64,000 nucleotides of DNA. Source: Microbacterium marinum (GTDB lineage Bacteria > Actinomycetota > Actinomycetes > Actinomycetales > Microbacteriaceae). The notes under the pieces are model-generated. The model saw only the letters and a program-made list of their open reading frames with translations. It was not told the origin of the DNA and did no database searches. A program made the position numbers and the translations under genes. Shown one piece after another: positions 9,416 to 39,629 of this stretch; the first letter of the stretch is position 1, and each line of letters starts with the position of its first letter. The stretch is taken from assembly GCF_014204835.1 (NCBI RefSeq), contig NZ_JACHMD010000001.1:434001-498000 (forward strand), in the 5' to 3' direction.

Positions 9416-9433
9416 GCACAGGGAAGTGAACCG

Positions 9434-14127: not shown

Positions 14128-14153
14128 CCCGTCCAGCCTACCGTCCGTACCAT

Positions 14154-14216: not shown

Positions 14217-14238
14217 CACCGATTCAAAGGAGAAGGCC

Positions 14239-14643: not shown

Positions 14644-14688
14644 CACCCTTCCTCCGCCGACCGCTACCGCGGCGCTGGGGGGCCCGGC

Positions 14689-18260: not shown

Positions 18261-18971
18261 TCAGGCGTTGATGAGCTCGTAGAGCGACCCGTGCTTGCTC
18301 GTCATCATTGCCTCGACGGACGTGGCGAGGGCGCTGTCGCGGACGAGGATGCCGAACTCGACGTTTCGGTTCTCGGCTGAGTAGCTGAAGTTCGCGCTGG
18401 TGATCAGGAGCAGCTCGTGGTCGACCACGATGAACTTCGCGTGGCTCACGACCAGCTTGCCGTTCGGCAGGACCGCTGACCGGTACACCGTGGCTTGTGG
18501 GAGCTGCACCTTGATCGTCGTGGCGTCAGCGACCGCAGCGTCGACGTAGACGGTGACGACGACACCTGGCTGCTCCGATGCCGCCTTCAGTGTCGTCCAC
18601 ATCCGAGACGTGTCCTGGAAGTTGTAAGTCGCGGCCGTGACCGATTGTCGTGCAGAACCGACGATGCGGTGGAACTCGCTGGTCAGACGGCCCGTGTTGG
18701 CTTCGTTGCCAGGCATCGTCCATACCGGAACCAGCTCCCGCAGGACAGTCTTGGCTCCGGCAATGGCTCGCAGCACACTGACGGAACGTTCGCGGGCGCC
18801 AGGCTCAAACCCGCAGGCGGCGAGGAGTTCCTTCGCCTGGTCGCGTCGGCTGATCGCGATCTCGCGCACGGCGACGCTGACGGGCGTACCGAGTTCGAAC
18901 TGCAGCGCGAGCCGTTCCGCTTCGGTGGCGGTCAGGAAGCTGCCGAGTTGGTTGAGCGGGTCAGAGGCCAT
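18261..18971 (-). CDS. drmC: DrmC, phospholipase D-like DISARM protein
   Basis: A 236-aa protein with one PLD-type catalytic motif near the C-terminus: SHAKFIVVD followed by ITSANFSYSAENRN, the H-x-K-x(4)-D plus Asn/Ser arrangement of PLD nucleases. In DISARM, DrmC is the accessory PLD component. The start was placed at ATG 18971 (MASDPLNQ), which overlaps the drmB stop by 11 bp; the open frame extends 45 codons upstream, but that part is a shadow of drmB. Last gene of the operon drmD-drmMI-drmA-drmB-drmC. Confidence 0.9.
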   Translation of the reverse strand: MASDPLNQLGSFLTATEAERLALQFELGTPVSVAVREIAISRRDQAKELLAACGFEPGARERSVSVLRAIAGAKTVLRELVPVWTMPGNEANTGRLTSEFHRIVGSARQSVTAATYNFQDTSRMWTTLKAASEQPGVVVTVYVDAAVADATTIKVQLPQATVYRSAVLPNGKLVVSHAKFIVVDHELLLITSANFSYSAENRNVEFGILVRDSALATSVEAMMTSKHGSLYELINA

Positions 18972-20991
18972 GGGTGCTGCCGAAGAACCCGGGGACGACC
19001 GGGCCTTTCGCGGTGGGGAGGTCGAGGAGGAACCGGCGGTCCAGGAATCGGTTGGCCTTCTCGCAGGAGGTCTCGGAGGCGAAGGCGCAGGTGTGGCAGG
19101 CCGCACCGTGGAGGAAGTCCTCCGGGTCCGATGGGGTGCGTTGGGCGCAGACCGGGTCGGAGGAGCACCGCGCGGCCCGGCGCAGCGCCGCTAGCACGAT
19201 GCTCTGGAGCTTTACCGGTTCCGACAGCGCCACCAGACCGCCGAGCGTTCCGTCGCTGTCGGATGCAGTCGTACAGATGAGCAGCCCCGCGGCCGCCTCA
19301 CGCCCGGGCTCTTCCCGCCAGGCGTATATGCGCTCGGTGAGACTGGCGGCGCCGTAGCCGGAGTACATTGCCATCTCGCGAATGAGGATGTGCGACAGCG
19401 TGTGGACGAGCCAATACCGGGGACCGGGCAGTCGGGTGTCGGGATTTACGGCGGCGGCGGTCTCGGAAAAGCGCCGAGTGAAGTTGCGACGGTGCGCCTC
19501 GACGTGGGAGTTCCACAGCGGGGTGGACTCGATGTGTCGTTCCCACTGCCCGACGGCGTCGAGGTCGAGTTGCAAGAAGATGCCTTCGCCGCGGTCTTCG
19601 GTTGCAGGTACCCAGGAGGGCTTGCCGTTCCGGGTGAGTTCGACCAGGCGTGAGGCGACGTCGTTGACCCGGTCCATCTCATCGAGGCGGGTGAAGCCAA
19701 GCACCGCGTTGACCTTCTTCATCCGGTTGACTCCGACAACGCGGTGAATGCGCGGGTGCAGATCCGGGCCGCGCTGCATCTCGGTGACCATCAGCCCGGT
19801 GTTGTTCTGCTGTTCGGGGAACAGCGTCGGCTTCTGGAGGTAGCGCCACTCGGGGATGAGCAACTCGATCGGGTCCCAGTTGGCGCGGCGCTCCTCTCGG
19901 TCCGCCTCGGACTCCGGCGGTGCGATCACGTCTGCGATGGCAGCAGCGATGTCGGCGTCGGTGAGCCCGGCGACGTCGATGTTGCGCGCCCCAGCCAGGG
20001 CGCGGATCACCGCGATCTGGTCGGCGAACTGCCGGATCTGGTCGATGCCGAGTTCGACGCGGAGATGGTCGGCAAGTGCTTCCTTCTGCTCGGCGTCCGA
20101 GCGCGGCATGACGATGATGCTCTGCGTTGAGGGGAACCACAGGTTCGAGGCGCCCATCATGATGAGCGCGGGCTGCGCCCTGCAGCCGGGAAAGAACGCG
20201 CCGAGGTGGGGATGGCGTCCGCGGCACGTCTGGGGCAGTTTGAGCCGCCCCTTCGCCCCCTGGGCTTCCGCCATGCCGCGTGTGGCGTTGCACGACTGGC
20301 AGATGATCGTCGAGCCGACGCTCTTGCCGACGTTGGCGTCGCGCATCTTGAGGTCGGGGTTCTCAGCGTTCGGGCACTTCTGACCCCGGTGAACCCAGAG
20401 GGTGTAGGGAAACTCGTCGAGGTGTCCGTTGGTACAGGTCAGCAGGTGCTGTGCGGGGACGGCCGGACTGCCCTCGCGGCGCCCCCGTCCGCCGCGGCCA
20501 GGGCAGGGCTTGTGGGTGAACTGGGCGACGTCTGGCCGGAACGGATGCGTGTTCGTGTAGGTGAACCGGGGGAGCGGGCCGAGGTAGTCGCAGCCGGTGC
20601 ATCGGAACCACTGCGGGAACACCCGCGCGGGAAGGCCGAGGTCCGAGCCCTCGGTCGACATCGAGCCCTTCTTGGGCTGCCACGGGAACGGCCGCAGCGC
20701 GTCGACCTGGGGGCCGAGGTGCAGACGGACGACGTTGAGTAAGCGCGGTTCGAGGATCGTCGGGACGACCTCGCGGCGCTTCCAGATCGGCTCCCAGTCG
20801 TCGAGTCCGGCGGGCATGACCGAGAAGTTCGGCAAGTCCATGATCGCGCCAGGACCGTAGGTGTACAGGAGCGAAGAAGGACGCGCGGACCCGACCTTGG
20901 CTCGATTCTTCGCGAGGCCTTCGTCCGCGTCGCCGAGCGGGTCGAGGGCGTCGTTGTTGTCGGCCAGTGGCGTGGTGGTGGTGTCGGTCAT
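18961..20991 (-). CDS. drmB: DrmB, DUF1998-containing DISARM protein
   Basis: A 676-aa protein. Near residue 34 it carries GSARPSSLLYTYGPGAIMDLP, the typical DrmB opening. Cys pairs follow (CTGC, CTNGHLDEF, CQSC), then a C-terminal DUF1998 region with YSGYGAASLTERIYAW and a terminal AACHTCAFASETSCE cluster that likely binds zinc. DrmB works with the helicase DrmA in the core DISARM complex that restricts unmodified phage DNA. The start overlaps the drmA stop (ATGA on the minus strand), which fixes it and implies coupled translation. Confidence 0.92.
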   Translation of the reverse strand: MTDTTTTPLADNNDALDPLGDADEGLAKNRAKVGSARPSSLLYTYGPGAIMDLPNFSVMPAGLDDWEPIWKRREVVPTILEPRLLNVVRLHLGPQVDALRPFPWQPKKGSMSTEGSDLGLPARVFPQWFRCTGCDYLGPLPRFTYTNTHPFRPDVAQFTHKPCPGRGGRGRREGSPAVPAQHLLTCTNGHLDEFPYTLWVHRGQKCPNAENPDLKMRDANVGKSVGSTIICQSCNATRGMAEAQGAKGRLKLPQTCRGRHPHLGAFFPGCRAQPALIMMGASNLWFPSTQSIIVMPRSDAEQKEALADHLRVELGIDQIRQFADQIAVIRALAGARNIDVAGLTDADIAAAIADVIAPPESEADREERRANWDPIELLIPEWRYLQKPTLFPEQQNNTGLMVTEMQRGPDLHPRIHRVVGVNRMKKVNAVLGFTRLDEMDRVNDVASRLVELTRNGKPSWVPATEDRGEGIFLQLDLDAVGQWERHIESTPLWNSHVEAHRRNFTRRFSETAAAVNPDTRLPGPRYWLVHTLSHILIREMAMYSGYGAASLTERIYAWREEPGREAAAGLLICTTASDSDGTLGGLVALSEPVKLQSIVLAALRRAARCSSDPVCAQRTPSDPEDFLHGAACHTCAFASETSCEKANRFLDRRFLLDLPTAKGPVVPGFFGSTHGL

Positions 20992-23900
20992 CAGTCGTCC
21001 TCCCCGGTGGGCAGCGCCCAGTTGTCAACGCCTTCGGGAGTTCTCGCGAAGAGTCGGTCTGGTACGGGCGAGACGAGAATGTTGATCTCCGGCTGCACTT
21101 CGCGCATCGAGTTGGCGATCACGAACGGCGCTTCACTGGAACTGCCAACTTTGGCGCGGTGGTTTTCGGGGCTGATAATGAGCGGCAGGTACTTGTCGCC
21201 CTCGCCAGTGCGCTCGTAGACGAGTGTCTGGTGCCGCTCGCTGGCATACCCGGCGCGGCTTGTCCACCGGTCGACCCGGTTCGTCAGTAGGTCGCTGGCC
21301 TTCTTCGTGAGGTCATCGTCCTGCGACGCGGCGAGAATCCGCGCCTTCAGCCGGTCGATGATCCCGACGACTGCGGGATGCTGTGAGGCGATCTTGCCCG
21401 CCTCACGCTCGGGCGATAGACCGTCGGCGATAGTCGCCTGGGCGACGCGCGCGGCGCTAACCAGTAGCCCGTCGATGCCTCGCTCCAGCGAGGTCGGCGA
21501 GAACGGCGTGACGGAGAGTGCCTCGACCTGCTTGTAGAAGGTGTCGTGGTAGTGCCGGAACTGCTCGAAGTGGGCGAGGTCGCGTGGCCGCGCCCAGTTT
21601 CCCAGCGACACGACCAGGCCCGGGCGTGTCGCGTCGCGGCCCACTCGCGATGACGCCTGGATGTACTCGGCGGTGTTCTTCGGCTGGCCGACCACGAGCA
21701 TGAGCCCGAGGCGCTGCACGTCCACGCCAACCTGGAGCATCGACGTGGCGAGGACGACGTCGAAGGGGGCGTCCCCGTCGCGCTTGGGGGCGACCTTGTC
21801 TTCTCGGCGCAACGCGATTCGTGCCTGGAACGCCGCGGTCGTGTCATAGCCCGGGTCGAACTCGAGCCCGAGCTTGTCGAGGGTCTTGCCGATGTCGGCA
21901 CCTGAGATCCGTGACGTCAGCTCCGCCACGTTGAGGTTTCCGAACGTGGTGCCATACCGCCGCGGGAATCCGGAGTCGCGGCGGGGGTTGCCTACCCGCG
22001 TACTGACGTCGTCATCGACATAGCGGCGCATGCCGGCCAGCTCCCGCGTGGCGTTGAAGTACCCGACGAGAGTCATGTATGGGTCTGCCTCGATCCCAGT
22101 GCGGTCGAGCAGCAACTGGCCTGCAAGTAGCAGCACCTCGGCGAGGCGAATCTCGGCGCTCGACAGGCGCACGCCCGGCGCGCTGACGCCGACGTAGCGT
22201 CGGCCGGGATTCTGCTCGGAGACTTCGACTTCGCGCGAGAAGAAGGTGTCGGCCACGTCGAGCACCTGCGGCGGGAAGATCTCCACCTTGCGGCCGTAGA
22301 GCTGCCGTACCTGCTCGACCGCGTTGCGCACGGTGGCCGTCGAGGCGACGATCAGAGGCTTGACCGGTTTGCCCTCGGGCGTCTCCCACGAGCACAGCGT
22401 CTCGATGGCGACCTCGAACAGACCAACGGCCGTGCCAAGCGCCCCGGTGATGAGGTGCAACTCGTCCTGGATGATCAGGTCCGGCGGGCGCAGGCGCCCG
22501 ACCGACATGACCGTCGCGGCGGGGTGACCGTTGTTCGCCGGGTGCGACTGCACGGTGCAGCCTGTGTAGTCGGGGTGGACGTAGCCGTGCCGCCCGCAGC
22601 GCCTGCTCACGAACCCGAACAGCGAGGCGGCCTCGCCCTCGCGCGCGAGCCGTGCGAACTTGTCGACGGTCGCGATGACGAATGCCGGTGTGAGTCGGTA
22701 GATCTCCTCGTCCACGGTGAGCACCGGGAGTCCCTCGGGAACGCCGCCTCCCTTGGAGAACGGGCACCGGCCCAGCTCGTCACCGCAGTGCACGAACACC
22801 CGGCGACTGGTGGCGTCACCCTTCACGTTCGCCGGGGTGATCTCGGTCCCGCACCACGGGCAGCGCTGAATCTGAAGGACCGTCAGGCGGTGCGAAGCAC
22901 CATCGTTGACCTTCTTGAGCTGCTCGTCAGCTTCCTCGAACCGCTTCGGACTGACGTCGGTGCCGACCCAGAGGCCGATGCGGAACGGTTCGGTTCCCCA
23001 GGTCTCTTCGTCCTCGCGGCGAGCGAGTTCGGCGGCGCAGACGAGTGCGGTCGCACGCTGGAACTGCTGCGCCGTCAGCAGGCGCAGCGTGTATCGCATC
23101 AGCACCGATACGCCATCGCTGCCGTTCAGAGCACCGTCGATCGACTGCACGACCGCCTGCCGACGGCGGATTGCGAACGTGTAGGCGGCCAGGCCCAGGT
23201 ACGCCTCAGTCTTGCCACCACCTGTCGGGAAGAAGAGCAGCTCCACGCGGGCCTGATGCTCCGCGCTGCGCAACGCGGTCGTCGGGTCGGTCAGCGACCC
23301 GAGCTGCATGAGAATGAACGCGAGCTGGAACGGACGCCACGACGCGACGGGCTTTCCGTCAGCCTCGGCCGATTCAAGGTCCTGCCGCGCCTGCGCGATC
23401 GGCAGTGCCGAGTCGGACTTTCGCGCTTCGGCGACCTGGGAAGCGAGGCGCTGATCGCGCATGACCCTGTTCATGAACTGGAAGCACTGAAGCCCAGTGG
23501 CGTCGGAGGCGACGAACTCCAGCCCGTCGACAAGGCGTTGGTGCGCCTGCCGCGCCTCCCACAGCACCACATCGGCGATCTCTTGCAGGTGCTCGGGAAG
23601 CTGTGCCGCCACCCCTTCCTGCCGGTCGAGCCACGCCCCATAGCCGGAGACCAAGGGAGCAAGCCCGGCGCGCAACTCGTCAGAACCGACGGAGGCCAGC
23701 GTCTTCATCGACAGCGTCGCACCCTCAACCTCGCCGGCCCTAGTCTGCGGAGTCTCGGCCTTCGGCAACCACGTCGTCGACACCGACGTCGCGCGCCGCG
23801 AACCCTTGCGCACAACCCAGTCGGCCGAGCAGGTGCGGCCGATCGCGAACTCGAGCCGGTCCTTGTACTGGAGGTCGAGCCGCCGCACCTCGTCGTCGTG

Positions 23901-24704
23901 CTCGGGCCAGTCCTGTTCCAGCACGTCTCGCACCGGCAAGAATGCCTCAGCGCCACCGGCGTCGATGAGAAGCTTCGTCTGGAACATCCACATGTTCGAC
24001 GGGATAGGAAGTGGCGTCTCGCGGTCGTTGCACAGCGCGATCTCCACGAGCACCCGACCAAACTCGGCGTCGTCGTAGCGATCGATCCGCAGGCAGATCG
24101 CATCGCGCAACACAACCGTCTCGGTGCGACCGGGAGTCAGCGCAGCGAGAGTGATGGTCCGGGTTTCCTCGATCGGCGAGCGCTGGTACTTCCGAATGGG
24201 TCGCCCGGCCTTCGACACGTCGTCGGTCTCGACCGTCTCGTAGGTGCCCCACGACGCCGTGACGTGGAACGACTCGAGATCGCTGGGCACCTGGAATCGC
24301 AGCCCCATCGACGCCGGGATCATCAACCCTTGCTTGGGTGCGCGGTCCTCGACGTCGTCCTCTTCGGCATCCGCCTCGCTCTCGTCGGCCGCAACCGTCG
24401 GGACTCCGCGCCCTTCGGTCACACCGTCCTCGTCGAGACGCACCTCGGCCAGGTCGTCGGCGTCGTCCTGGTCGAGTCCCGAGCCATCGGTGGTCGTGAG
24501 TTTGACCGGCGCGATCAGCCCGACGAGGTACATCTGCTTCGGGCTGAACGGGAGCAGTTCTTCGTCTCCGTGGATCGGCCCCAGCAGCTCGCGTTCCAAG
24601 ATGTCCACAAGGTTCTCGCGCACGCCGAACGACGTGCCGTCGGTCGGGAAGTTGAGCACGTAGCCCGAGTCCGCTGGGGTGGGCGCGTCCGTGCTCTCTG
24701 CCAT
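20991..24704 (-). CDS. drmA: DrmA, DISARM helicase
   Basis: A 1237-aa SF2-type helicase. Walker A is FFPTGGGKTEAYLG (Lys near 498) and Walker B is QDELHLI (DELH near 747-750). A helicase C-terminal domain follows with VGVDVQRLGLML and QASSRVGRD. Four-Cys zinc motifs (CPWCG) lie between. Size and motif order match DrmA, which with DrmB forms the DISARM core. Two ATG codons are possible; 24704 (MAESTDAP) is chosen because residues before it look unlike the conserved start, but 24728 cannot be excluded. The recombinase gene lies upstream, separated by a 60-bp gap, so transcription may read through it or begin there. Confidence 0.92.
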   Translation of the reverse strand: MAESTDAPTPADSGYVLNFPTDGTSFGVRENLVDILERELLGPIHGDEELLPFSPKQMYLVGLIAPVKLTTTDGSGLDQDDADDLAEVRLDEDGVTEGRGVPTVAADESEADAEEDDVEDRAPKQGLMIPASMGLRFQVPSDLESFHVTASWGTYETVETDDVSKAGRPIRKYQRSPIEETRTITLAALTPGRTETVVLRDAICLRIDRYDDAEFGRVLVEIALCNDRETPLPIPSNMWMFQTKLLIDAGGAEAFLPVRDVLEQDWPEHDDEVRRLDLQYKDRLEFAIGRTCSADWVVRKGSRRATSVSTTWLPKAETPQTRAGEVEGATLSMKTLASVGSDELRAGLAPLVSGYGAWLDRQEGVAAQLPEHLQEIADVVLWEARQAHQRLVDGLEFVASDATGLQCFQFMNRVMRDQRLASQVAEARKSDSALPIAQARQDLESAEADGKPVASWRPFQLAFILMQLGSLTDPTTALRSAEHQARVELLFFPTGGGKTEAYLGLAAYTFAIRRRQAVVQSIDGALNGSDGVSVLMRYTLRLLTAQQFQRATALVCAAELARREDEETWGTEPFRIGLWVGTDVSPKRFEEADEQLKKVNDGASHRLTVLQIQRCPWCGTEITPANVKGDATSRRVFVHCGDELGRCPFSKGGGVPEGLPVLTVDEEIYRLTPAFVIATVDKFARLAREGEAASLFGFVSRRCGRHGYVHPDYTGCTVQSHPANNGHPAATVMSVGRLRPPDLIIQDELHLITGALGTAVGLFEVAIETLCSWETPEGKPVKPLIVASTATVRNAVEQVRQLYGRKVEIFPPQVLDVADTFFSREVEVSEQNPGRRYVGVSAPGVRLSSAEIRLAEVLLLAGQLLLDRTGIEADPYMTLVGYFNATRELAGMRRYVDDDVSTRVGNPRRDSGFPRRYGTTFGNLNVAELTSRISGADIGKTLDKLGLEFDPGYDTTAAFQARIALRREDKVAPKRDGDAPFDVVLATSMLQVGVDVQRLGLMLVVGQPKNTAEYIQASSRVGRDATRPGLVVSLGNWARPRDLAHFEQFRHYHDTFYKQVEALSVTPFSPTSLERGIDGLLVSAARVAQATIADGLSPEREAGKIASQHPAVVGIIDRLKARILAASQDDDLTKKASDLLTNRVDRWTSRAGYASERHQTLVYERTGEGDKYLPLIISPENHRAKVGSSSEAPFVIANSMREVQPEINILVSPVPDRLFARTPEGVDNWALPTGEDD

Positions 24705-24764
24705 GGGCACCAGTCTGCCGCAGACCACTGACGTTGATCGGTGTCGGCCACGCGGATGTGGCTG

Positions 24765-26030
24765 TTACGACGACCACGTCAACAACACTCGCTCCTCGTC
24801 GAAGTAGCGACCGACGACGCCGCGTCGGATCACGAGCGTGTCCAACTGAGACACGAGCACCGCGCGCCGTGCCATGTCGTCATGGCCGGCGCGTGCCCAT
24901 GCGTCGTCGACTGTGAGGTCGCCGATGAGTTCGTTGGCGCGCTCGATGAGGAGCCGGTCGATCAGGTAGTCGTCGAGCGCGGTGCGTCCGATCGTCTGGC
25001 GGCACTTCGGGCAGTAGAGCACGGGTCGCTTCTGGTTCGTGCCGCGGCAGAGGTGCACCGCGCACTCAGCGCACCGGGCCACGCGCGACAGGAACGCGCT
25101 CGTGGACTGGCGCTCGGCCTTCTTCCGGGCCTGAGGCACGGTCCGGGCGTCAAGCAACCGCTGCAAGGTCGCAAACTCCTCGGTCGTGATGATGGCGAGC
25201 GCCCGGCTGACGACCGGCCGTCCTCGTTCGTCTCGAAGCACGGCGAACGGGTCGACCCGCTTGGCGCTCTTGGCGCGGCCCGGGTTGTGCGGGGTCATCC
25301 CGGCCAGCACGGGGTTTCTCAGGAGGCCATCGACGGTCTGCCTGTTCCACGACGTGCTGCCCGATGTCCGCTCGGTGCGTCGCGCGGGAAGCGGGGCTCC
25401 GCTGTCAGTGAGCCAGGTAGCGATCGCGTTCACTGTGTCGCCGCTCAGTGCCTTGGCAACCGCGTCGGAGAGCCACCCGATTCGCTCGTCGTCCTTCACC
25501 AGCACACGGCCGGGACCGTCGGGGTTCGACACGGACTGATATCCATACGGGATGCCACCGCCGGGCCATCGGCCATCCTTGAGGATCTGTGCGCGGGCCG
25601 CTCGCACCCTGGCACGGATGGCTTCGGCTTCCATCTCGCCGAAGACCGCGAGCATGACCGCGAAGGCGCGGCCCTGGGGACTTGTCATGTCGATCGGGTC
25701 CTCTACGGCGACCAAACCAGCGCCGCGCTTCTGGAGGGTCTCGTCGGCGTGGAGGAAGTCGAGCACCCGACGGGCGAGCCGGTCGACCTTCCAGATGATG
25801 ACGGCATCGAAGTCACGAGCAGCGAGCAGCGACTTCCACCCGTGACGCTCCTCGGGCCGGTTGGACGTGGCAGAGACACCGTCATCGACGAACTCGCCGA
25901 CGATCTCCCACCCGCGGGCTTCGGCGTAGCGGCGGCAAGACTGGAGCTGACGAGCGATAGAGACGGACTCCTCCTTGGTGACACTGAGGCGGGCATACAG
26001 GACGCAGCGGCGTGCTTTGCTAAGGTTCAT
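24765..26030 (-). CDS. Serine site-specific recombinase inside the DISARM operon
   Basis: A 421-aa large serine recombinase. The catalytic domain opens YARLSVTKEES (Ser16) and contains IIWKVDRLARRVLDF. A recombinase domain (GGIPYGY) follows, then a zinc ribbon with CAECAVHLC and CPKC. The start MNLSKARR at 26030 is chosen; the open frame continues 119 codons further, but that segment overlaps the methyltransferase cassette on the other strand. It lies only about 30 bp from the cassette edge. Position next to inverted methyltransferase copies suggests it drives an inversion that swaps the C-terminus of DrmMI. It could instead be the remnant of a separate insertion. Catalytic residues appear intact. 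Confidence 0.88.
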   Translation of the reverse strand: MNLSKARRCVLYARLSVTKEESVSIARQLQSCRRYAEARGWEIVGEFVDDGVSATSNRPEERHGWKSLLAARDFDAVIIWKVDRLARRVLDFLHADETLQKRGAGLVAVEDPIDMTSPQGRAFAVMLAVFGEMEAEAIRARVRAARAQILKDGRWPGGGIPYGYQSVSNPDGPGRVLVKDDERIGWLSDAVAKALSGDTVNAIATWLTDSGAPLPARRTERTSGSTSWNRQTVDGLLRNPVLAGMTPHNPGRAKSAKRVDPFAVLRDERGRPVVSRALAIITTEEFATLQRLLDARTVPQARKKAERQSTSAFLSRVARCAECAVHLCRGTNQKRPVLYCPKCRQTIGRTALDDYLIDRLLIERANELIGDLTVDDAWARAGHDDMARRAVLVSQLDTLVIRRGVVGRYFDEERVLLTWSS

Positions 26031-26059
26031 CGGGCCAGCGCATCGGCCTTGCCGTCGCA

Positions 26060-27367
26060 GTGCCACCTCGCTCTTGCAGGCAAACGGCACACTCGGCCTC
26101 ATCGCGACGAACACAGTCGCCCAGGGCGACTCTCGCGAGGTCGGACTCGACGCGATGGTCGCTGCCGGGTTCACGATCACACGCGCAATCCAGAGTCGCT
26201 CGTGGCCCGCAGCGAGCGCCAACCTCGAGTACGCGGCAGTGTGGGGCACCCGCGGCTCTGTGAACGACGAACTGCCTCGCGTAGCCGATGACGTCAGCGT
26301 TCGACGGATCAGTACCCTCCTAGAGGCCTCTGGTCGCGTGGACGGGATGCCAGAGCGTCTTGCCGAGAACTCTGGACTGGCCTTCATCGGCTGCTACGTC
26401 TTGGGCATGGGTTTCGTCTTGGAGCCTGAAGAGGCGCAAGAGTGGATTGCCGCCGATGCTCGCAACGCTGAGGTGCTGTTCCCGTATCTCAACGGCGAGG
26501 ACCTAAACCAGCGACCCGATGCATCTGCCTCGCGCTGGGTGATCGACTTCAATGACTGGTCCGAGGAGCGAGCACGCGCGTACTCGCTCCCGTACTATCG
26601 GCTCGTCGAACGCGTGAAGCCGGAGCGACAGCGCCTCAAGCCCGACGGTGAGTACGCGCTTCGTAGACCTTTGCCCGAGCGGTGGTGGCAGTACGGAGAG
26701 AAGCGGCCGGCCCTCCGCAAGGCGATCGCGGACTTGTCTGAGGTGTTGGTCATCGCGCTTGTGAGCAAGACCGTGATGCCTATGCGCGTGGCGTCTGGGC
26801 AAGTTTTCAGTCATGCACTTGGAGTCTTCGCGTCCGATGACTACGGCGTGCAGGCAGTCTTGTCATCGAGCCTGCACCAGCTCTGGGCAATCACCTACGG
26901 ATCCGGCATGAGGGAACGATCCCAGGTACACGCCTTCCGACGTCTTCGAGACATTCCCGCGTCCCGACACCACGACCGACATCGCGGAACTCGGGCTGGT
27001 GCTTGACGGTGAGCGTCGGGCAATCATGATGCGCAGGGACTTTGGTCTCACGAAGCTCTACAACCTAGTCAATGATCAGGCGGTGGGCGCGGGCGCGGAC
27101 AGTGATGTTGATCGTATCCGTGAGCTGCACGTCGAGCTCGACCGCGCAGTGCTCGACGCCTACGGCTGGTCTGACATCAGCGCCGATCACGGCTTCTACA
27201 CCTTCAGAAACATGCAGCGCTGGACAGTCAGTATGACCGCGCGCGTCGAGCTGTTGGATCGCCTGCTTGAAGAGAATCATCGACGAGCGCTCACCGAGCA
27301 ATCAGCCGCGTCGAGCAAAGGCGGAGCCGCCACTGTCGTTGACGAGGACGGCCTCCTATTCAGATGA
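26060..27367 (+). pseudogene. Silent inverted drmMI C-terminal cassette
   Basis: The plus strand encodes a diverged copy of the last ~400 residues of the DrmMI methyltransferase. Near-identical blocks include LLQANGTLGLIATNTVAQGD, NAEVLFPYLNGEDLN and LSEVLVIA, mixed with variable stretches such as the region after SRWVIDF. There is no start codon or N-terminal part, so it cannot act alone. One extra base near 26920-26926 shifts the frame: the first part stops at 27006, and the remaining homology (RRAIMMRRDFGLTKLYNLV) continues in another frame to 27367. It is tail-to-tail with the intact gene, 17 bp apart. Likely an alternative target-recognition cassette, now frameshifted. Confidence 0.88.
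26122..26159 (+). repeat. 38-bp inverted repeat, cassette copy
   Basis: These 38 bases are the exact reverse complement of 28562-28599. They code for QGDSREVGLDAM in both copies and fall in the same codon phase, so a crossover here would join the DrmMI N-terminus to the cassette in frame. Confidence 0.9.
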
Positions 27368-27384
27368 CCCCGCTCCGAGGGTCG

Positions 27385-30300
27385 TCAGTCGAACAGGGTT
27401 TCCGCTCGCGGGCCGATGCCGCTCGCCGTCTTGTTCTCCGAATCCGGTTCACTGGCCGTTGCGCGCCGCTGATTCTCAAGCAGCAAACGGTCAAGGGTCT
27501 CGACACGGTCCGCCGCCCCCAAAGACCACCTTTCGACCTGACGATAGGAGTGAAAGCCGTGACTCAACCGAAGGTCCGCCCACCCGTAGGCTTCTACAGT
27601 GGCCTCGTCGATCTCGACGTGAATGTCCCTGAGATGTGAAACGTCGGGGTCAGCGTCGACTGCGGGGTTATCAACGAGGTTGTAGAGCTTCGTGAGACCA
27701 AGGTCACGACGCTGCATGATTTCCCGTCGATCCTGCTCCAAAACTCTGCCCGCCGAAGTGAGGCGCGTAGTGCTCGTGGGCATTGGGAAAGTTTCGAAGA
27801 CGTCTGACGGCGTGTATCGAACTCGCGTCTCCAACGTGGATCCAAAGGTGATCGCCCAGGTTCGGTGCAGGCTCGATGACAAGACTGCCTGGGCTCCGTA
27901 GCTATCGGACGCGAAGACAACACATGCCTCACTTGGCACCGAGCCTGTCGGAATCCGCATCGGCATGACGGTCTTGCTGACACGCGCGATGACCAACACC
28001 TCAGACAAGTCCGTGATCGCCTTTCGCATCGACGGAGCCCATGCGGCGAACCGCCACCAATTGTCCCGGCGGTACGCGATCTTGACCTTCGCTCGCTCAG
28101 GCCTGACAAGCTCGCGGACACGCTGAAACGGAAGCTCGTATGTGGCCGCTTCAACTTCTTCGCGTGTGCCGAAGTCGATCACCCAACGGGACGGCGAGCT
28201 ATCGGAGCGTGAGTTCAGGTCCTCGCCGTTGAGATACGGGAACAGCACCTCAGCGTTGCGAGCATCGACGGCAATCCACTCTTGCGCCTCCTCAGGCTCC
28301 AAGACGAAACCCATACCCAGGACAATGCAACCCTGGAACGCGACGCCCGAGTTCTCGGCGAGGCGAACGGGGTTGCCCTCAGCTCGTCCTTGCGCTTCCA
28401 GCAGCGTGCTGACGCGCCGAACAGCGACTTCGTCGGCGAACCGTGGGGCGTTCTCGGCGATATCGGCGCGGGTGCCCCATACGGCTGCGTACTCCAGATT
28501 GGCGCTGCTCGCTGGCCACGACCGGCTCTGGATTGCGCGCGTGATCGTGAAACCGCCCGAAACCATCGCGTCGAGTCCGACCTCGCGAGAGTCGCCCTGC
28601 GCGACCGTGTTCGTTGCGATGAGTCCGAGCGTGCCGTTCGCCTGCAACAGCGAGGTCGCACGTAGGAAGAAGTAGGCGACGAGGTCGGCACTGCCGCGGC
28701 GGCCTTCTGCCAGCACGTTGACGAACCAGTCGCGAATGTTCGTTCCCATAGCGCCGGTGAGCTTCTGGCCGCCGAGAAACGGCGGGTTGCCGATGATGGC
28801 GTCGAAGCCTCCGTGATCGACCATGACATCGGCGGCCTCGATGATCCAGTGGAGCGGCTGCCAACGGATGTAGTCGGTCTCGACGGTTGGCGTGAGTCCA
28901 TGGTCGATCTTGGAGTCGAGCCAGGTGGAGTCGGCTTCGCCGCGAGCGCCGGGGTACGCCTTGCGTGCCGCTTCACGCAGGTCTTCATAGGCGGTGTCGA
29001 GCGCCCGTCCCGGCTTGCCACCAAGGGCGAGTCCGGTGGCGACGACGCCGTCGGCGAGCCTGCGGAGATCGGCCGTGACCGCCTGGAGTTGCACGAGCTG
29101 CCGCCTCTTGGCGGCCGCGGATCGGGCCGGGCTATCGTCCGATTCAACCGGAGACGCCAGGCTTTCCCGCAGTTCGATCGCGCGCTTGATGATCGAGTCT
29201 GAGTCGACCTCGAAGATGTCGAGCATTCCCTGCTGGCGATTAGCCTTGGCTGGGTCGATGTGCATGGCGCGAAGCTGACGGATGTCGGTGAGCCCGAGGA
29301 GCGAGTTGCCGACGAACACCTTGTCGTCAACGAAGGAGAACGGCAGGTCGCGATCGAGGGAGACGAGCCAAAGGGAGAGCTTGCACATCTCGATGGCCAT
29401 GTCGTTGATGTCAGCCCCGTAGAGGGACTTGGCGACGACCTCGCGAACGGCGAGGTTTCGCAGGTCTTTGCGTCCCGCCCAGGCAGGGTTCTCGGCGACC
29501 CATGCCTCGACGAGCCGGTCGGCGAGAAAGCGTGCGGCTGCCACGAGGAACGCACCCGAACCGCATGCGATATCCGCAACCTTGAGCGTGAGGATGTCCG
29601 AAGGCGCCTTCAGCATCCACTCGTCCCGATTCGCAGTCTGATGCGGACCGGGGTTGTAGACGAGCGGCTCGAGTGCGTATTTGACCACGTCCTCGGCGAG
29701 CGACTTGGGCGTGTAATGCGCTCCGGCATTCTTCCGGGATGGCGTCTCCTTGACCAGGAGCGCGCCCTTGAGGACGACGAACGGTCGATTACGGAGGTCG
29801 AGCCGCATGAGCCCCAGCCAGGGCTTGACGCGTTCGCGCAGGTCGAGGTCGTCGCCGACGGCTTGGGTGAGCGCGCTCACAATGCCAGGGTCGACCGTAG
29901 CGTCGATGGCCCTGACGATGGCGGCCTCGGAGGAGGGCTTGGCAGAGGGCTGGTCGGTCTCGATCCAGGCGCGGATGGCTTTAGCGAGTTTCTTGCGGTC
30001 GCTGTGGGCGTTGGCGAGTTCCTCCAGCTTCGCCAGCGGGACTTCGGGCTCCTCCCCGCGGGTGCCGAGAATGCCAAGCACGACCTCGGGGGCGACTGTC
30101 GCGGTGTAGCCGAGCAGGCCCTCGTACATGTAGCCGATCTGCTCGACGTCGATGTCGCGGAACGAAATGCGTCGCGCGTCGCCCTTGATCTCGGCGATCT
30201 GCACGGCGCGCAGAACGTGCAGCATGACACGGTCAGATACGGTGACGCCGAGGGTCCCGACGTCGCTCGTGGCGGTCAGGAATGGGAATCGAGTCGGGTC

Positions 30301-31440
30301 GAACAGCGAGCCGCCGTAGGCGGGCATGCGCAGGCTCTCGAAGGTCGCGCCGCGGTAGAGGGCGTTGCTGGTGGCCAGCAGCCGGTGCCATGTGAGGGAG
30401 GTGGCGTCGAGGGCTTCCTCGCTCTCGGCCGAATCGCGGGCGACGAGCTGGTCGAGTTCGCCGGCGATGCCGTAGCCCTGATCGAACAGTTTGCCTTGTG
30501 GCAGAAGCCCGCGCTCCTCGGCGAACAGCAGGAAGACCACGCGCATCATCACCGTCACGGCAGCCTCATAGCTGTCGTGCGGGCGGTCCGGGAGTGGGTC
30601 TGGCAGACTGCGTCGCTTCGCCTCGGCCGCGGATTCGGAGAATGACTGGATGAGCAGCTCGACCGCGCGGCGCACCTGGGCACCCAGCGCCTCGGTGATC
30701 TCCTCGGCCGCAGCGACGGACTCCTCGAAGAGCACCGGGAGCCGTTCGGCCGGGTCACCGCCGATGAGGTGCTGGCGCCCCATTAAGGCCATGAATGCGT
30801 CGCGGGTACGGGGTTCCTCGGTCCAGGTGAGTGCGTCGACAACGCCTGAGGCTGCCATCGCGTTCTCGCGTGCGCACACGAGTCCCCACCAGCGGCCGTC
30901 GGTGACGATGCCGATGGGCACGCGACTCTCGCGCAGGAGCGCCTCGACGCGGTCGACTGGGTTGGCCGCCCACAGGTCTCCCGGCACTTCGCGCAGGGAG
31001 TCGACCGGGTCGATGACGTGCACGATCGCGCCGATCCCGTCGTCTCCGGCGAGGGAAGCTTGCGCGCGGACCGTTACAGCACGGTTTGGAGACTGCGCGG
31101 CGACACCCGCGAGCTCACCCCACGTGAGCGACTCGGCCCAGCCCGCGACGTCGCGCAGCACGGTCTCGATCCACTTGTCGCGGGCCGAGCGGTAGGCGTC
31201 CAGCGCGGTGTCCTGCCCGGGTCTACGGTCGTAACGCTCCCAGGCGGACTCGAAGTCTTTGCGTGCGTCGGAAAGGGTGGCCTTGCGAGGCTCGGCGAGC
31301 TGCGGCATCCCTTCTGGCCAGACGCGCTTGAGCGGTGGAATGGCGAGGAACGGGCCGTCGGTGTCGACCAGTTCGAGCCAGGCGCGGTGCAGGTCTGCCG
31401 CACTCTTGGCGGGGCGGTTGCGTACGGGTCGGCGTGCCAT
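27385..31440 (-). CDS. drmMI: DrmMI, DISARM N6-adenine DNA methyltransferase
   Basis: A 1351-aa methyltransferase of the large Eco57I/PglX-like kind. SAM motif I is DIACGSGAF (residues 623-631) and the catalytic motif is NPPF (885-888), marking adenine-N6 methylation. The C-terminal ~400 residues carry the target-recognition region and vary between this gene and the cassette at 26060-27367. In DISARM the enzyme marks host DNA so that DrmA/B spare it. The start at 31440 overlaps the drmD stop (ATGA); an ATG four codons earlier is possible. The stop lies 17 bp from the end of the inverted cassette. The 38-bp shared block falls at residue 948, the expected switch point. Confidence 0.92.
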   Translation of the reverse strand: MARRPVRNRPAKSAADLHRAWLELVDTDGPFLAIPPLKRVWPEGMPQLAEPRKATLSDARKDFESAWERYDRRPGQDTALDAYRSARDKWIETVLRDVAGWAESLTWGELAGVAAQSPNRAVTVRAQASLAGDDGIGAIVHVIDPVDSLREVPGDLWAANPVDRVEALLRESRVPIGIVTDGRWWGLVCARENAMAASGVVDALTWTEEPRTRDAFMALMGRQHLIGGDPAERLPVLFEESVAAAEEITEALGAQVRRAVELLIQSFSESAAEAKRRSLPDPLPDRPHDSYEAAVTVMMRVVFLLFAEERGLLPQGKLFDQGYGIAGELDQLVARDSAESEEALDATSLTWHRLLATSNALYRGATFESLRMPAYGGSLFDPTRFPFLTATSDVGTLGVTVSDRVMLHVLRAVQIAEIKGDARRISFRDIDVEQIGYMYEGLLGYTATVAPEVVLGILGTRGEEPEVPLAKLEELANAHSDRKKLAKAIRAWIETDQPSAKPSSEAAIVRAIDATVDPGIVSALTQAVGDDLDLRERVKPWLGLMRLDLRNRPFVVLKGALLVKETPSRKNAGAHYTPKSLAEDVVKYALEPLVYNPGPHQTANRDEWMLKAPSDILTLKVADIACGSGAFLVAAARFLADRLVEAWVAENPAWAGRKDLRNLAVREVVAKSLYGADINDMAIEMCKLSLWLVSLDRDLPFSFVDDKVFVGNSLLGLTDIRQLRAMHIDPAKANRQQGMLDIFEVDSDSIIKRAIELRESLASPVESDDSPARSAAAKRRQLVQLQAVTADLRRLADGVVATGLALGGKPGRALDTAYEDLREAARKAYPGARGEADSTWLDSKIDHGLTPTVETDYIRWQPLHWIIEAADVMVDHGGFDAIIGNPPFLGGQKLTGAMGTNIRDWFVNVLAEGRRGSADLVAYFFLRATSLLQANGTLGLIATNTVAQGDSREVGLDAMVSGGFTITRAIQSRSWPASSANLEYAAVWGTRADIAENAPRFADEVAVRRVSTLLEAQGRAEGNPVRLAENSGVAFQGCIVLGMGFVLEPEEAQEWIAVDARNAEVLFPYLNGEDLNSRSDSSPSRWVIDFGTREEVEAATYELPFQRVRELVRPERAKVKIAYRRDNWWRFAAWAPSMRKAITDLSEVLVIARVSKTVMPMRIPTGSVPSEACVVFASDSYGAQAVLSSSLHRTWAITFGSTLETRVRYTPSDVFETFPMPTSTTRLTSAGRVLEQDRREIMQRRDLGLTKLYNLVDNPAVDADPDVSHLRDIHVEIDEATVEAYGWADLRLSHGFHSYRQVERWSLGAADRVETLDRLLLENQRRATASEPDSENKTASGIGPRAETLFD
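28562..28599 (-). repeat. 38-bp inverted repeat, drmMI copy
   Basis: Exact reverse complement of 26122-26159. Recombination between the two would invert about 2.4 kb containing both C-terminal coding ends. On the drmMI 5' side similarity continues for about 62 bp with eight differences, then stops near 28661. Confidence 0.9.
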
Positions 31441-34400
31441 CAGTCGCGCCACCCGTCAGCGTCGTTGCGGGTGAGCGCGAAGACCACGGCGGCGGCGGTC
31501 GTGTGGGGTTTCACGTCGGCGTACCTGTCCTTGATCGCGGTGATCTCGCGCTCTTCTTCGTCATCGAGCTCGTCGAGGCGGCGTTGCATCGCCTCACGGT
31601 CGCGTCGCCACTGGCGCTCCTGATCGGCGTCAGTGAACAGCTGCCCGTGCGCTTCTGCCTCCTCAACGCGCAGCCGCGCCAAGGAGTCGCGGAGGTTCGC
31701 ACGGAACGCGGCGAAGATGTCCTGTGCGCGTTGCACGTCCGTGGCCTCGCGGCGCTGCAGTTGCTCGGTCACCTGGGCCTGCTTGCGTTCCGCACGCGTC
31801 CGCATGGACTCCTCCAGGCGGAGGCGGAGCGGCGCGTCGGGCACATTCCACAGGTCGCAGAGCTGGTCGCGCACGCGATCGTCGGCGAGAACGAGGTATT
31901 CCTGGTCGAGCGCGGTATCAAGTGCGGCCTCCGCTCGTTCCTCGGCCATCGCGCGCCGACCGTGAAGGCGGACACCCGCGAGGAACACCTCTTCGTGGAG
32001 CCGGACGCCCCCACGGCCGACGAGCACCATCCGAGTGACTGCCGCGACGAAGGACTCGTCAAGGTCATCGACGACGACCGCCGTGACACGGCGCAGCGTG
32101 GAGTCGATGCTCCACAGCGAGCGGCGCAACAGGCGCTGCGCCTTCTGCACGATCGGGTGCCCGAGGTGCACGAACACCAGGTCCGTTCGGCCGTTGGCGG
32201 CGTCCGGGTCGAAGGTGATCGGTCGCAGCACACCCGGGTCGAGCCGAGTGTCGAGGCCGCGCAGCGTGTCACGCCATCCGGCAGTGAGGCTCGGGACGGT
32301 GAAGACCTCGGCGTCAGTGTCCTGCGCGAAGTCGTAGTTCGGGACGAGCGGCGACTGGTGGTTGATCCGCAGCGCGGTATCGACGACGCGGCGCAGGTTC
32401 GCCGGGTCGAGGTGCATCTCCGTCCGGGACGCGTCGTAGCCCTGCTCGAGCTGCGTCAGGCGGGCGTTGAGTTCCATTCCGCCGGCCAGCGCCTGGTTGA
32501 TCACCTCGTTGGTGTCCACGCCCTTCGACTTCGCCTTCGTCGCGGCGCGTTCGCCGAAGTGACCTTGGATCTCTGCGCCGACGACCTGGTTGGCGGAGCC
32601 GAGGTCGTACTCCACCTGGGCAATCTTGCGGGCGATGATCTCCATGAACCGCAGGTCTGAGCCGTAGGTTGAGGACTCCCGCTCGGGGGCGAAGTGGTAG
32701 ACCTCGGGCTGCTGGGTCTGGCCGTAGCGGTCGATGCGACCGATGCGCTGCTCGAGGCGCGAGGGGTTGAAGGGGATGTCGAAGTTCACCAGCCGATGGC
32801 AGTAGGTCTGGAGGTCGATGCCCTCTCCCGCGGCGTCCGTGGCGAGCAGCACCCGCACCGGCTCCCTGGACGGGTCGGCGGTGAACTGGGAGCGGATGTA
32901 CTCCCGCTCCTCGGGCGGGGTCGAGCCCTGGATGACTGCTAGGCGGTCGTCGTCGTACCCCTTCTGTCGCAGCACCCGGGTCAGCCACTCCACAGTGTGG
33001 GCGTACTCGGTGAACACCACGACGCGCTCGTTCGACCAAAGCCTGCCGTCGGGGCGGCAGACGGCATCAAGGAACCGGATCAACTGGTCAAGACGGGCGT
33101 CGGCGCGACTCTCATAGCCCAGCCCCCAGTTCGCCAGGGTCTCAAGCTGGCCCGGCTCGGCGGCACTGAGCGGATCAGACGCCTTCGACTCGCGGAGCTT
33201 CTCCGACTCATCCTGCTCCCACAGGCCCTCCTCCTCGTCAGCCTGCCCCTCGCCGAAGATGTCGTCGTACTCATCCTCGGACAGCCCGCGACCCGCCTTC
33301 GAGGCGAGGTAGTTGCTCAGCGTCATCCCGAACGCGAACGGGCTGGACAGGAAGCGCTTCTTCAGCAGCATCGTCACGATGTCGCCGGTTGGCCTCGTAC
33401 CGTTGAGCTTTGCGCTCTTCGTCACGATCTCATCGAGCAGGGCGAACATCCTCTGCTCGTCGTCAGCCGGATCGAACGGGATCATGCTGACCTTGCGCTT
33501 CCTAAAGCCCTTGCCAGGCAGGTCGGTCTTCAGGCGGCGGACCGTCACGTCCTTGAGCGCAGTCGAGTCGAGGTTCGCGCCACGGGCGAAGCGGCGGGGG
33601 TCGATCATCTCCATCAGTGCGGTGAATGACTCCGGGTGGCCGTTATGGGGAGTCGCGCTCAGGAACAGCCGGTGCTCGCACTTCTCGGCGAGCTGGCGCA
33701 CAGCGACCGTGCGCTGGGTGTCGACGGCATACCCTCGCCCACCGGCGATTGCCGACGGGCTCGACGGCGCGACATGGTGTGCCTCGTCGACCACCAGGAC
33801 GTCAAACGCGTACCGACTGCCTGTCTTCGGATTGCTCGCCTGCGCGTACACATCGCGCAACAGTCGCTGCGCCCGCACTTGCGGCAGCCACGCCATGCTC
33901 ACGATCACCCGCGGGAAGATCTGGAACGGGTTGGCCTGAAGCCCGTGCGTGCGGCGCACCTCAGCCATGAGCTCTGAGTTCACGATCGTGAACTCCAGAC
34001 CGAACTTCTCCCGCATTTCGTCCTGCCACTTCAGCGCCAGGCTGGGCGGGCACACGATCACCGCCGTGCGGGCGCGGTGCCGCAGGAACAGCTCCTGGAC
34101 GACAAGGCCCGCCTCGATCGTCTTTCCTAGGCCCACGTCGTCGGCGAGCAGTAGGTTTGCGCGCGGTGCTCCGAGCGCGCGACGAAGCGGTTCGAGTTGG
34201 TACGCCTCGACATTCACGCCGGACCAGAACGGAGCCTGGTAGCGGTTCGGATCGGCGCTTGTCACGGCTCCCCACCGCATCGCATCGATGAAGCCCGCAA
34301 GAGTCTCCGGTTGGTCGAAGCCGTCCGCATGGATCACGTCGGGGAGCCCTTGAGCGGGCGTCACTGTGTGGCCGACTTCGAGTTCCCACACAACGCTGAG

Positions 34401-34589
34401 CTGCGCGCCGAGACTGCCCTCGTCAAGCGACTGCAAGTCGACGACATGGCTGAGCTGCGCGACCGCCTCGTCAGCGGGGCTTCGCGGGAGCCCCTGAGCT
34501 TGCACGTTGGAAACCGCCCACGTCGAACCTCGCACCTCGACGACCTGACCTGCCTCGGGAAGCGGTGGGGCTGTGGTGGTGCTTGACAC
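31440..34589 (-). CDS. drmD: DrmD, SNF2-like DISARM helicase
   Basis: A 1049-aa SNF2-family ATPase. Walker A is LADDVGLGKTIEAG (Lys156) and Walker B is DEAH (268-271). The helicase C-terminal half includes VLLATDAAGEGIDLQ and LEQRIGRIDRYGQ. This protein together with an adenine methyltransferase defines class 1 DISARM. A GTG at 34589, preceded by AGAGGT, is taken as start; the frame stays open to an ATG at 34679, so a longer form is possible. It is the first gene of the drmD-drmMI-drmA-drmB-drmC run, divergent from the GmrSD-like gene with a shared 174-bp control region in which no clear promoter stands out. Confidence 0.9.
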   Translation of the reverse strand: MSSTTTAPPLPEAGQVVEVRGSTWAVSNVQAQGLPRSPADEAVAQLSHVVDLQSLDEGSLGAQLSVVWELEVGHTVTPAQGLPDVIHADGFDQPETLAGFIDAMRWGAVTSADPNRYQAPFWSGVNVEAYQLEPLRRALGAPRANLLLADDVGLGKTIEAGLVVQELFLRHRARTAVIVCPPSLALKWQDEMREKFGLEFTIVNSELMAEVRRTHGLQANPFQIFPRVIVSMAWLPQVRAQRLLRDVYAQASNPKTGSRYAFDVLVVDEAHHVAPSSPSAIAGGRGYAVDTQRTVAVRQLAEKCEHRLFLSATPHNGHPESFTALMEMIDPRRFARGANLDSTALKDVTVRRLKTDLPGKGFRKRKVSMIPFDPADDEQRMFALLDEIVTKSAKLNGTRPTGDIVTMLLKKRFLSSPFAFGMTLSNYLASKAGRGLSEDEYDDIFGEGQADEEEGLWEQDESEKLRESKASDPLSAAEPGQLETLANWGLGYESRADARLDQLIRFLDAVCRPDGRLWSNERVVVFTEYAHTVEWLTRVLRQKGYDDDRLAVIQGSTPPEEREYIRSQFTADPSREPVRVLLATDAAGEGIDLQTYCHRLVNFDIPFNPSRLEQRIGRIDRYGQTQQPEVYHFAPERESSTYGSDLRFMEIIARKIAQVEYDLGSANQVVGAEIQGHFGERAATKAKSKGVDTNEVINQALAGGMELNARLTQLEQGYDASRTEMHLDPANLRRVVDTALRINHQSPLVPNYDFAQDTDAEVFTVPSLTAGWRDTLRGLDTRLDPGVLRPITFDPDAANGRTDLVFVHLGHPIVQKAQRLLRRSLWSIDSTLRRVTAVVVDDLDESFVAAVTRMVLVGRGGVRLHEEVFLAGVRLHGRRAMAEERAEAALDTALDQEYLVLADDRVRDQLCDLWNVPDAPLRLRLEESMRTRAERKQAQVTEQLQRREATDVQRAQDIFAAFRANLRDSLARLRVEEAEAHGQLFTDADQERQWRRDREAMQRRLDELDDEEEREITAIKDRYADVKPHTTAAAVVFALTRNDADGWRD

Positions 34590-34763
34590 GTGGACTACCT
34601 CTTCAACGACAGTGCGGGCTTCAGTTGACTTTCTCACATTGCCGGCGCGTGACCGCATTGGTTGGACGGTTCCGCGCACGATTCAGAGGCGGGGACGTCA
34701 CCACGTCAGCTGTCCTAGTCTCGACATACATCGACGTTGTAAGGCAGCGAGGAGCGCACCGAC

Positions 34764-38708: not shown

Positions 38709-38906
38709 CCAACGGCGTGGCGCATGTTGTGTATCTGACGCCCCCAAGCGTAAATGTCACATTCACTACTCGCCTCCTCCGCCGTGCGAGAAGCCTCGAA
38801 CACGAGTACCTCGGCACGCGTGTCGAAGCTGCGGATCGTCGGTGATGTCCGTACGTTAACGACTCAAGAGTTAGGACTCTATGTTCGTGATTTTTGGGAG
38901 ATGGAC

Positions 38907-39629
38907 ATGTCAGCGTCCTCGTCGCGTTACACGCTGAGATTTGATCGGGATGACCTCGAACGGGGCGAGCTCTCGGACCTGGACGCCCCCCATGTCTTCG
39001 AGGCCGAGCCTCGGCGGACGTTCCGCTGGCATCGGGGACAGCGCCACTACCCAGGGCGCTACTGGTCCGCAACGACGGAGGGCTTCGTCGGATACGAAAG
39101 CCGCCTCGAACTCGCGGCGCTGCTCCTCGAGGACTTCGACCACCGAGCCGTTCGGATCGCCTCGCAGCCGTTCGAGCTGATCGCTGACCGCGACGGCGTC
39201 GAGCGAAGCTACGTGCCCGACTACATGATCGAGCACAACGACCACCGATTCACGGTGATCGAGGTCAAGCCCAACCGCCGGCTGGAGGACCCGGAGATCG
39301 AGGGCGCTCTCAGGTGGGCAGGCGACATCATCCAGTCGCGTGGCTGGGCATATCGAATCGTCACCGAACCCGACCCGGCACTCCTTTCCAACATTCGGTT
39401 CCTGGCGGGCTACAGGCGTCTCTGGCAGTTCCCTCAGCGAGACGTCGACCTGGTCGAGGCGGCCACTCGCGAAGCACCCACACTCGGCGCGGCTCTGCGG
39501 AATGCGGGCGCAGCCTTGGGCGACATTCCCTATGCGCGAGCGGTCGTGCTCCACCTGCTCTGGCGCCACTCGATTCTCTGCGACCTCACATCCGTCCTTG
39601 CCAACCACACCCAATTGGAGATGCCATGA
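38907..39629 (+). CDS. tnsA: TnsA-like transposon endonuclease
   Basis: A 240-aa nuclease that cuts the 5' strands at transposon ends, allowing cut-and-paste movement. The restriction-enzyme-like site is complete: Glu64 (GYESRLE), Asp105 (VPDYMI), and Glu119/Lys121 (IEVKP). The spacing resembles that of Tn7 TnsA. The ATG at 38907 has GGGAG seven bases upstream; the open frame extends back to 38754, but that part is unlike TnsA. The stop overlaps the tnsB start (ATGA). Its presence implies the element moves without replication. Confidence 0.9.
   Translation: MSASSSRYTLRFDRDDLERGELSDLDAPHVFEAEPRRTFRWHRGQRHYPGRYWSATTEGFVGYESRLELAALLLEDFDHRAVRIASQPFELIADRDGVERSYVPDYMIEHNDHRFTVIEVKPNRRLEDPEIEGALRWAGDIIQSRGWAYRIVTEPDPALLSNIRFLAGYRRLWQFPQRDVDLVEAATREAPTLGAALRNAGAALGDIPYARAVVLHLLWRHSILCDLTSVLANHTQLEMP

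Follow-up and report, generated by a model that had tools for sequence, protein, structure and literature searches.

The 64,000-nucleotide window analysed here (positions 434,001 to 498,000 of contig NZ_JACHMD010000001.1) comes from Microbacterium marinum and sits in a single contig of 3,124,335 bases, in a 3.12-Mb genome. It carries a complete class 1 DISARM (defence island system associated with restriction-modification) operon on the minus strand, with drmD, drmMI, drmA, drmB and drmC. Between drmMI and drmA lie two added pieces: an inverted partial copy of drmMI and the gene for a 421-residue serine recombinase. The arrangement is best read as a site-specific DNA inversion switch built into the defence system, with the recombinase recombining two inverted blocks termed S1, and we give this reading a probability of about 0.78. 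It draws on (i) the anatomy of the locus, (ii) the conservation of S1 as DNA, (iii) both orientations in the contigs of one assembly and (iv) swapped alleles between species, all of them features of the sequence.

In the proposed mechanism, the in-operon recombinase, of the phage-integrase type, would pair the S1 block at drmMI residues ∼1052-1079 with its counterpart in the silent cassette. The intervening ∼1.84 kb would invert, giving DrmMI a different C-terminus and target recognition domain and leaving its catalytic N-terminal part (∼1,050 residues) unchanged. The cell would thereby alternate between two DNA targets; where the stored half carries damage or a truncation, it would instead alternate an active enzyme with an altered or inactive one. 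The fixed catalytic part includes the NPPF motif near residue 889.

The drmMI locus and its inverted copy

The gene and its silent copy lie tail to tail, with their stop codons 17 bp apart. An earlier note, made from the letters of this DNA alone, had pointed out the recombinase, the start-less copy and the intact gene; all three were recovered at the positions it named, and the 17-bp spacing was measured again.

27385..31452, minus strand: drmMI, the expressed class 1 adenine methyltransferase (PADLOC DrmMI, 1624 bits)
26060..27367, plus strand: silent, start-less inverted copy of drmMI (residues ∼931-1341), frameshifted near 26927, with a Pfam MmeI_TRD match in its first part (1.9e-4)
24765..26030, minus strand: 421-residue serine recombinase, the putative inverter (Pfam PF00239, 5.8e-34; PF07508, 6.5e-11)
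28217..28290, minus strand: S1 block, gene copy, the putative crossover site at residues ∼1055-1079, with the core GCGCAAGAGTGGATTGCC at 28270-28287
26431..26504, plus strand: S1 block, cassette copy, with the core at 26434-26451

Counted from its GTG, drmMI has 1355 codons, and its product carries the Pfam domains Eco57I, MmeI_Mtase, N6_Mtase and MmeI_TRD, the last at residues 1048-1226. With S1 at ∼1052-1079, this recognition domain falls in the part that would be switched. The two pieces of the cassette match drmMI above chance (E=2.0e-124 and 2.7e-42), and the MmeI_TRD match in the first piece falls below the curated cut-off. The repeats shared by the expressed gene and its inverted silent copy are themselves inverted and in the same codon phase, as expected of an invertible methyltransferase locus; the S1 repeat, which the earlier note had overlooked, consists of a 51-bp and a 22-bp exact arm with one mismatch between them and is longer than the 38-bp repeat treated below. 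Because the switched part is assigned to MmeI_TRD and the two halves diverge, the swap is predicted to change the methylated motif. The recombinase frame is intact, with the Resolvase catalytic domain (PF00239) at residues 10-155.

Orientations and the probable crossover site

The earlier note had proposed looking for inverted alleles in the assemblies of relatives, and candidates were seen in two places: at the contig ends of a Psychromicrobium genome and as a swap in Microbacterium sp. 5K110. In Psychromicrobium lacuslunae (G920; 3,595,718 bases), the locus is present at both contig ends, as L056 and its second copy L057. The ends overlap at 99.5-99.96% identity: the first 6,500 bases have a 99.83% match close to the other end, and the overlap extends to ∼21.2 kb, at which point the contig runs out. 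This looks like an untrimmed circular chromosome, so that most simply one locus has been seen twice. The flanks of the locus are collinear at 99.84% and 99.96%. The positions that distinguish gene from cassette are collinear up to 5557 in L056 and swapped at 379 positions between 5608 and 6524, beyond which the tails align uncleanly. The crossover therefore maps inside the 50-bp exact repeat at 5558-5607, which ends in GCGCAAGAGTGGATTGCC; a 270-bp identical arm further upstream (5211-5480) is not the crossover point. An assembly chimera was considered and rejected as the full explanation of this case, given flanks that match at at least 99.8% and a breakpoint on S1, in what is contig-level evidence.

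The second mappable case is the comparison of the focal locus with that of Microbacterium sp. 5K110 (L020). Over residues 992-1049 each gene resembles the other gene and each cassette the other cassette; over residues 1079-1153 and 1204-1353 the gene of one locus matches the cassette of the other. Apart from one patch discussed below, the remainder does not discriminate. The pattern supports an exchange of most of the two C-termini between gene and cassette, with the breakpoint in the S1 block. Across the loci, the gene or cassette label of a copy agrees with that of its nearest relative elsewhere in 22 of 31 copies for the sequence upstream of S1; for three downstream segments the counts are 17 of 33, 18 of 37 and 18 of 37. 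These counts are uncorrected for relatedness. The downstream labels are thus near random and the upstream ones less so, as expected if position is reshuffled downstream.

The S1 core stands out at the level of DNA. Among 1192 six-codon DNA windows, the 18-mer GCGCAAGAGTGGATTGCC is the most conserved, being exact in 11 of 15 drmMI genes (next best 7 of 15). This set comprises the full-length drmMI genes of recombinase-bearing loci; it omits L026, L027, L031, L032, L034, L040 and L053, which are incomplete or joined, and the second copy L057. The exact 18-mer occurs in none of six comparison genes, one of which (L028) lies on a contig that ends inside drmMI and so could belong to either group. 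It occurs in 10 of the 13 cassettes that cover the site (L057 excluded). Its codons CAA and ATT are minority choices (25% and 14% of the respective codon sets in these genes), and at up to 2 mismatches the focal genome holds exactly two copies, inverted.

Gene and cassette are also most alike at this point. Over S1 their identity is 88-100% in 11 comparable pairs, and over the next 67 codons it is 52-73%, except in L054 (100%). A recent exchange is indicated by the focal S1 arms, which are 98% identical: synonymous divergence (dS) between gene and cassette is 0.05 at S1, compared with 1.02 on the upstream side and 1.58 downstream. A profile of codon identity at conserved residues, built from 37 copies of loci that are not known to be recombinase-less (the contigs of L026 and L032 end early), peaks at residue 1060, with 0.79 against 0.47 in the six comparison genes. 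There is a second peak at 1155 (0.68 against 0.48) and a smaller rise at ∼930 (0.59 against 0.33); the comparison group, which is small, itself reaches 0.72 at ∼1295. The exact 2-bp crossover is not resolvable from the junctions of L021, L024, L027 and L055. Contigs ending at residues 931-972 (L026, L031, L032) fit the repeats, and a protein labelled partial (P0023) stops inside the S1 block; neither shows an inversion by itself.

Distribution, recombinase and rival explanations

The combination of cassette and recombinase is present in 17 further actinobacterial loci besides the focal one, some of them partly visible, and is a recurrent actinobacterial variant, not a one-off. A search for related loci gave 16 with drmMI. 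Ten have both cassette and recombinase (L019-L024, L027, L029, L030 and L033, the recombinase of L021 being cut by the contig end), one has neither (L025, Mycobacterium simiae), and in five the contig ends within drmMI (L026, L028, L031, L032 and L034). Searched by its protein, the recombinase is matched in 5 of 345 genomes of the genus at 1e-120 and in 4 of 394, 5 of 396 and 1 of 398 genomes of the class, order and family at 1e-100; these counts include the focal genome each time, and the draws overlap. In 10 of the 11 other matched genomes the recombinase lies in a DISARM locus beside a drmMI cassette, and in the eleventh (G1039, L059) a recombinase of ∼50% identity occurs without DISARM matches. 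Three of the four matches in the genus are loci already counted; the fourth, L040, shows the recombinase side only and may represent the opposite part of the L026 locus.

All 18 recombinase-bearing DISARM loci have a cassette (the focal locus, L019-L024, L027, L029, L030, L033, L040, L053-L056, L058 and L060; L040 and L053 are visible from the cassette side only). None of the five recombinase-less drmMI loci with a covered 3′ side has one (L025, L044 and plasmids L061-L063). Every cassette traceable to its end in the other loci (15 of 15) keeps an open frame from where homology starts through residue ∼1332 or beyond; a stop occurs near ∼1333 in L033, and those in L020 and L022 fall upstream of the homology. 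Over residues 932-1049 of the focal pair, nonsynonymous divergence is 0.15 against a dS of 1.02. Open cassettes and such a ratio are as expected if the silent halves are sometimes expressed. In L023, an assembly gap of N (12660-15279) falls exactly at the cassette start, the kind of assembly trouble that repeats or mixed orientations would be expected to cause.

Co-occurrence with the cassette and conservation of the site suggest that the recombinase is the agent of the inversion. It is likely a captured phage integrase, to judge from its relatives on phage contigs and its tree. Its best solved-structure relatives are integrases (9iu2, TP901-1), and relatives of 65-73% identity lie on seven IMG/VR viral contigs; the fetched stretches of these contigs, some of merely 4-5 kb, contain no DISARM genes. 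On the contig that was checked (L070, integrase 71% identical), three of the eight given open reading frames match PHROGs, as integrase, DNA methyltransferase and DnaB-like helicase. Named phages reach 31-36% identity (10 records), and plasmids yielded no relatives at 1e-40. In the tree, 15 DISARM-linked recombinases form one side of a branch (support 87/98, 86% of bootstraps) against seven others; the recombinases of L021 and L076 (both cut) and of L040 and L060 (the latter with an internal deletion) are omitted from it.

Several observations weigh against the proposed switch at S1. Both orientations in Psychromicrobium are seen at contig level only, and the terminal copy has apparent frameshifts in drmD, drmA and drmB, which mark it as a low-quality part of the assembly. 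In the comparison with Microbacterium sp. 5K110, residues 1154-1178 form a collinear patch, and six other species pairs are noisier, with a mixed or no clear pattern, so that one inversion at S1 is insufficient for everything; mosaics between species are not a direct view of flipping in any case. Four of the 15 genes depart from the exact 18-mer: L033 and L060 (one base different), together with L058 and L055, and the gene copy of L055 is without S1. An AlphaFold model of DrmMI residues 560-1355 was unusable (predicted local distance difference test score 58, predicted template modelling score 0.33). Finally, the reading frame of the focal cassette shifts: one frame runs to ∼26928, and a different one takes over at ∼26927 and continues to the stop. 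The earlier note expected inversion to give DrmMI a new C-terminus and target. This stands as far as the swapped part includes the target recognition domain, and probably fails for a clean new specificity in the focal genome: unless the frameshift is a sequencing error, the flipped product would be cut short, and the resulting enzyme would probably be truncated, inactive or altered. Flipping is presumed to continue in the focal strain.

The arms could also be exchanged by ordinary homologous recombination, or by gene conversion across the long inverted repeats, with the recombinase an incidental or decayed mobile-element gene. Such exchange would account for the several breakpoints of the mosaic and would have long identical stretches to act on (270 bp in L056, 467 bp in L029). 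It would also suit L060, whose recombinase (8647-9557) is without residues 43-156, most of the catalytic domain, while the arms remain alike and the cassette and an S1 with one base changed are kept. Yet the crossover that could be mapped lies in the 50-bp repeat ending in S1, not in the longer identical arm available at that locus; the DNA of S1 is conserved, minority codons included, in 11 of the 15 recombinase-bearing genes and in none of the six comparison genes; and cassette and recombinase are either together or both absent. Such recombination is therefore an improbable sole cause, though the best placed of the rivals.

The earlier note placed the switch point elsewhere, at a 38-bp repeat at residue 948, with inversion of about 2.4 kb. 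The repeat and other blocks shared by gene and cassette are as follows.

28562..28599, minus strand: 38-bp perfect inverted repeat, gene arm, an exact match judged to be flanking homology
26122..26159, plus strand: 38-bp perfect inverted repeat, cassette arm, an exact match
28642..28661, minus strand: S0, gene copy, the start of gene/cassette homology and a possible outer site, from the sequence and a boundary compared across loci
26060..26079, plus strand: S0, cassette copy, on the same grounds
27969..27996, minus strand: S3, gene copy, a second DNA-conserved block at residue ∼1154, where the truncated cassettes of some relatives start
26746..26773, plus strand: S3, cassette copy
27864..27891, minus strand: S2, gene copy, a conserved block near residue 1189 with a shared 9-mer
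26851..26879, plus strand: S2, cassette copy

The 38-bp repeat is, as claimed, exact and in phase, and by match start the gene/cassette homology begins at S0 (∼932) in 11 loci. In L027, from a Pseudoclavibacter metagenome-assembled genome (10701-11419), the expressed drmMI joins the left part of S0 (∼938) to S3 (∼1155) in another frame and the cassette is full-length, as expected of a flip at S0. In both mapped cases, however, the stretch between the 38-bp region and S1 is unswitched (∼992-1049 collinear) and the sequence beyond S1 is swapped. The best-supported switch point is the S1 block at residues ∼1052-1079, for an inverted span of ∼1.84 kb. The 38-bp arm is one patch within a 491-bp region of 79% similarity, and codon conservation there is 0.50-0.59, against 0.79 at S1. 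The repeat was accordingly rejected as the main switch point, and inversion of 2.4 kb from it has a very small chance of being right; a second, outer crossover site besides S1 may exist. A last idea is that the copy is inert, a leftover drmMI duplication from some past integration event that no longer switches in the focal strain. In its favour are the frameshifted cassette and the lack of any flipped molecule for this strain, none having been sought in reads. It is scarcely credible given the near-identical focal S1 arms amid flanks with a dS of ∼1.0-1.6, the intact recombinase frame and a 5K110 locus that carries the two C-termini mostly the other way round.

Possible further sites, operon setting and meaning

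The inversion at S1 may be one part of a wider repertoire. Cassette homology starts near S1 in L019 and L033, at 1018 in L058 and at 1139-1155 in L021, L024 and L055; in L023 the start falls in the N gap. The L024 cassette joins the left part of S1 to S3, and the L027 arrangement is likely the flipped, OFF counterpart of that in L021. A 9-mer, [AG]CAAGA[CG][CT]G, is common to S1, S0, S3 and S2. It has 32 matches in the 62,283 nt of the 15 genes, 30 of them at 934-, 1056+, 1155-, 1159+ and 1189-, and three in the 24,690 nt of the six comparison genes, none recurring; it was picked after viewing the sites, so that the test is not independent and the motif is a lead. A captured phage serine integrase acting at all four blocks might recombine parts of the two recognition domains independently and so draw several DISARM specificities, plus OFF states from frameshifted joins such as that of L027, out of one locus. 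We hold this extension tentatively, with the odds somewhat against it.

The operon itself is class 1 DISARM by gene content, as the earlier note had it, and its anti-phage role is predicted. DrmD, DrmA, DrmB and DrmC pass curated NCBIfam cut-offs, and DrmMI was called by PADLOC. Membership in BREX (bacteriophage exclusion) was ruled out, the best BREX PglX model scoring 38.3 bits against a cut-off of 500.

31440..34679, minus strand: drmD, DISARM SNF2-like helicase (NCBIfam NF038317, 1242.7 bits, cut-off 610; PADLOC DrmD)
20991..24728, minus strand: drmA (NF038325, 1378.2 bits, cut-off 950)
18961..20991, minus strand: drmB (NF038324, 654.1 bits, cut-off 240)
18261..19106, minus strand: drmC, phospholipase D-like (NF038319, 146.4 bits, cut-off 133; PLDc_2)

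Divergent from drmD lies a GmrSD-type (type IV, modification-dependent) restriction gene (34764-36638), which raises the question of how it tolerates DISARM methylation. Nearby, Tn7-like genes span 38754-45251: TnsA-like (38754-39629), TnsB-like (39314-41743), TniB/TnsC-like (41740-42861) and TniQ (42858-45251). By this gene set, the island may be Tn7-type cargo.

The locus has parallels among other defence systems. The pglX gene of BREX switches by means of inverted partial copies and a recombinase. In both cases a defence system of several genes has a large adenine methyltransferase whose gene lies beside a recombinase and an inverted partial copy of itself; the locus described here differs in belonging to class 1 DISARM, in its MmeI/Eco57I-like DrmMI, in a serine recombinase of the phage-integrase type and in the putative site S1. 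Type I systems shuffle a separate specificity subunit, whereas at DISARM the C-terminal domain of a fused methyltransferase is switched. In both, inversion exchanges target recognition sequences and hence, as predicted here, specificity. Compared with class 1 DISARM generally, the five genes are the same; what is added is the cassette with its recombinase, inserted between drmMI and drmA, which the drmMI loci L025, L044 and L061-L063 lack. Like actinophage serine integrases, the recombinase has Resolvase and Recombinase domains; unlike them, it sits inside a bacterial defence operon and on its own side of a tree branch. Invertible type I restriction specificity (hsdS) loci are mentioned in the accessible part of PMC11892184. 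The portions available of that paper and of PMC12926258, PMC12707154, PMC9716671 and PMC11842806 contain no DISARM inversion, and searches of the open-licence literature showed no published case among the matches listed, an earlier report elsewhere being possible.

If the proposed switch operates, class 1 DISARM can change its mark of self and non-self in part of a population, and phages having acquired the earlier methylation could once more be attacked. The system would also open to testing how cells withstand a change in protective methylation when their defence attacks DNA that is without the mark. Two-state loci with a mapped site would also allow DISARM methylation motifs to be compared within one strain.

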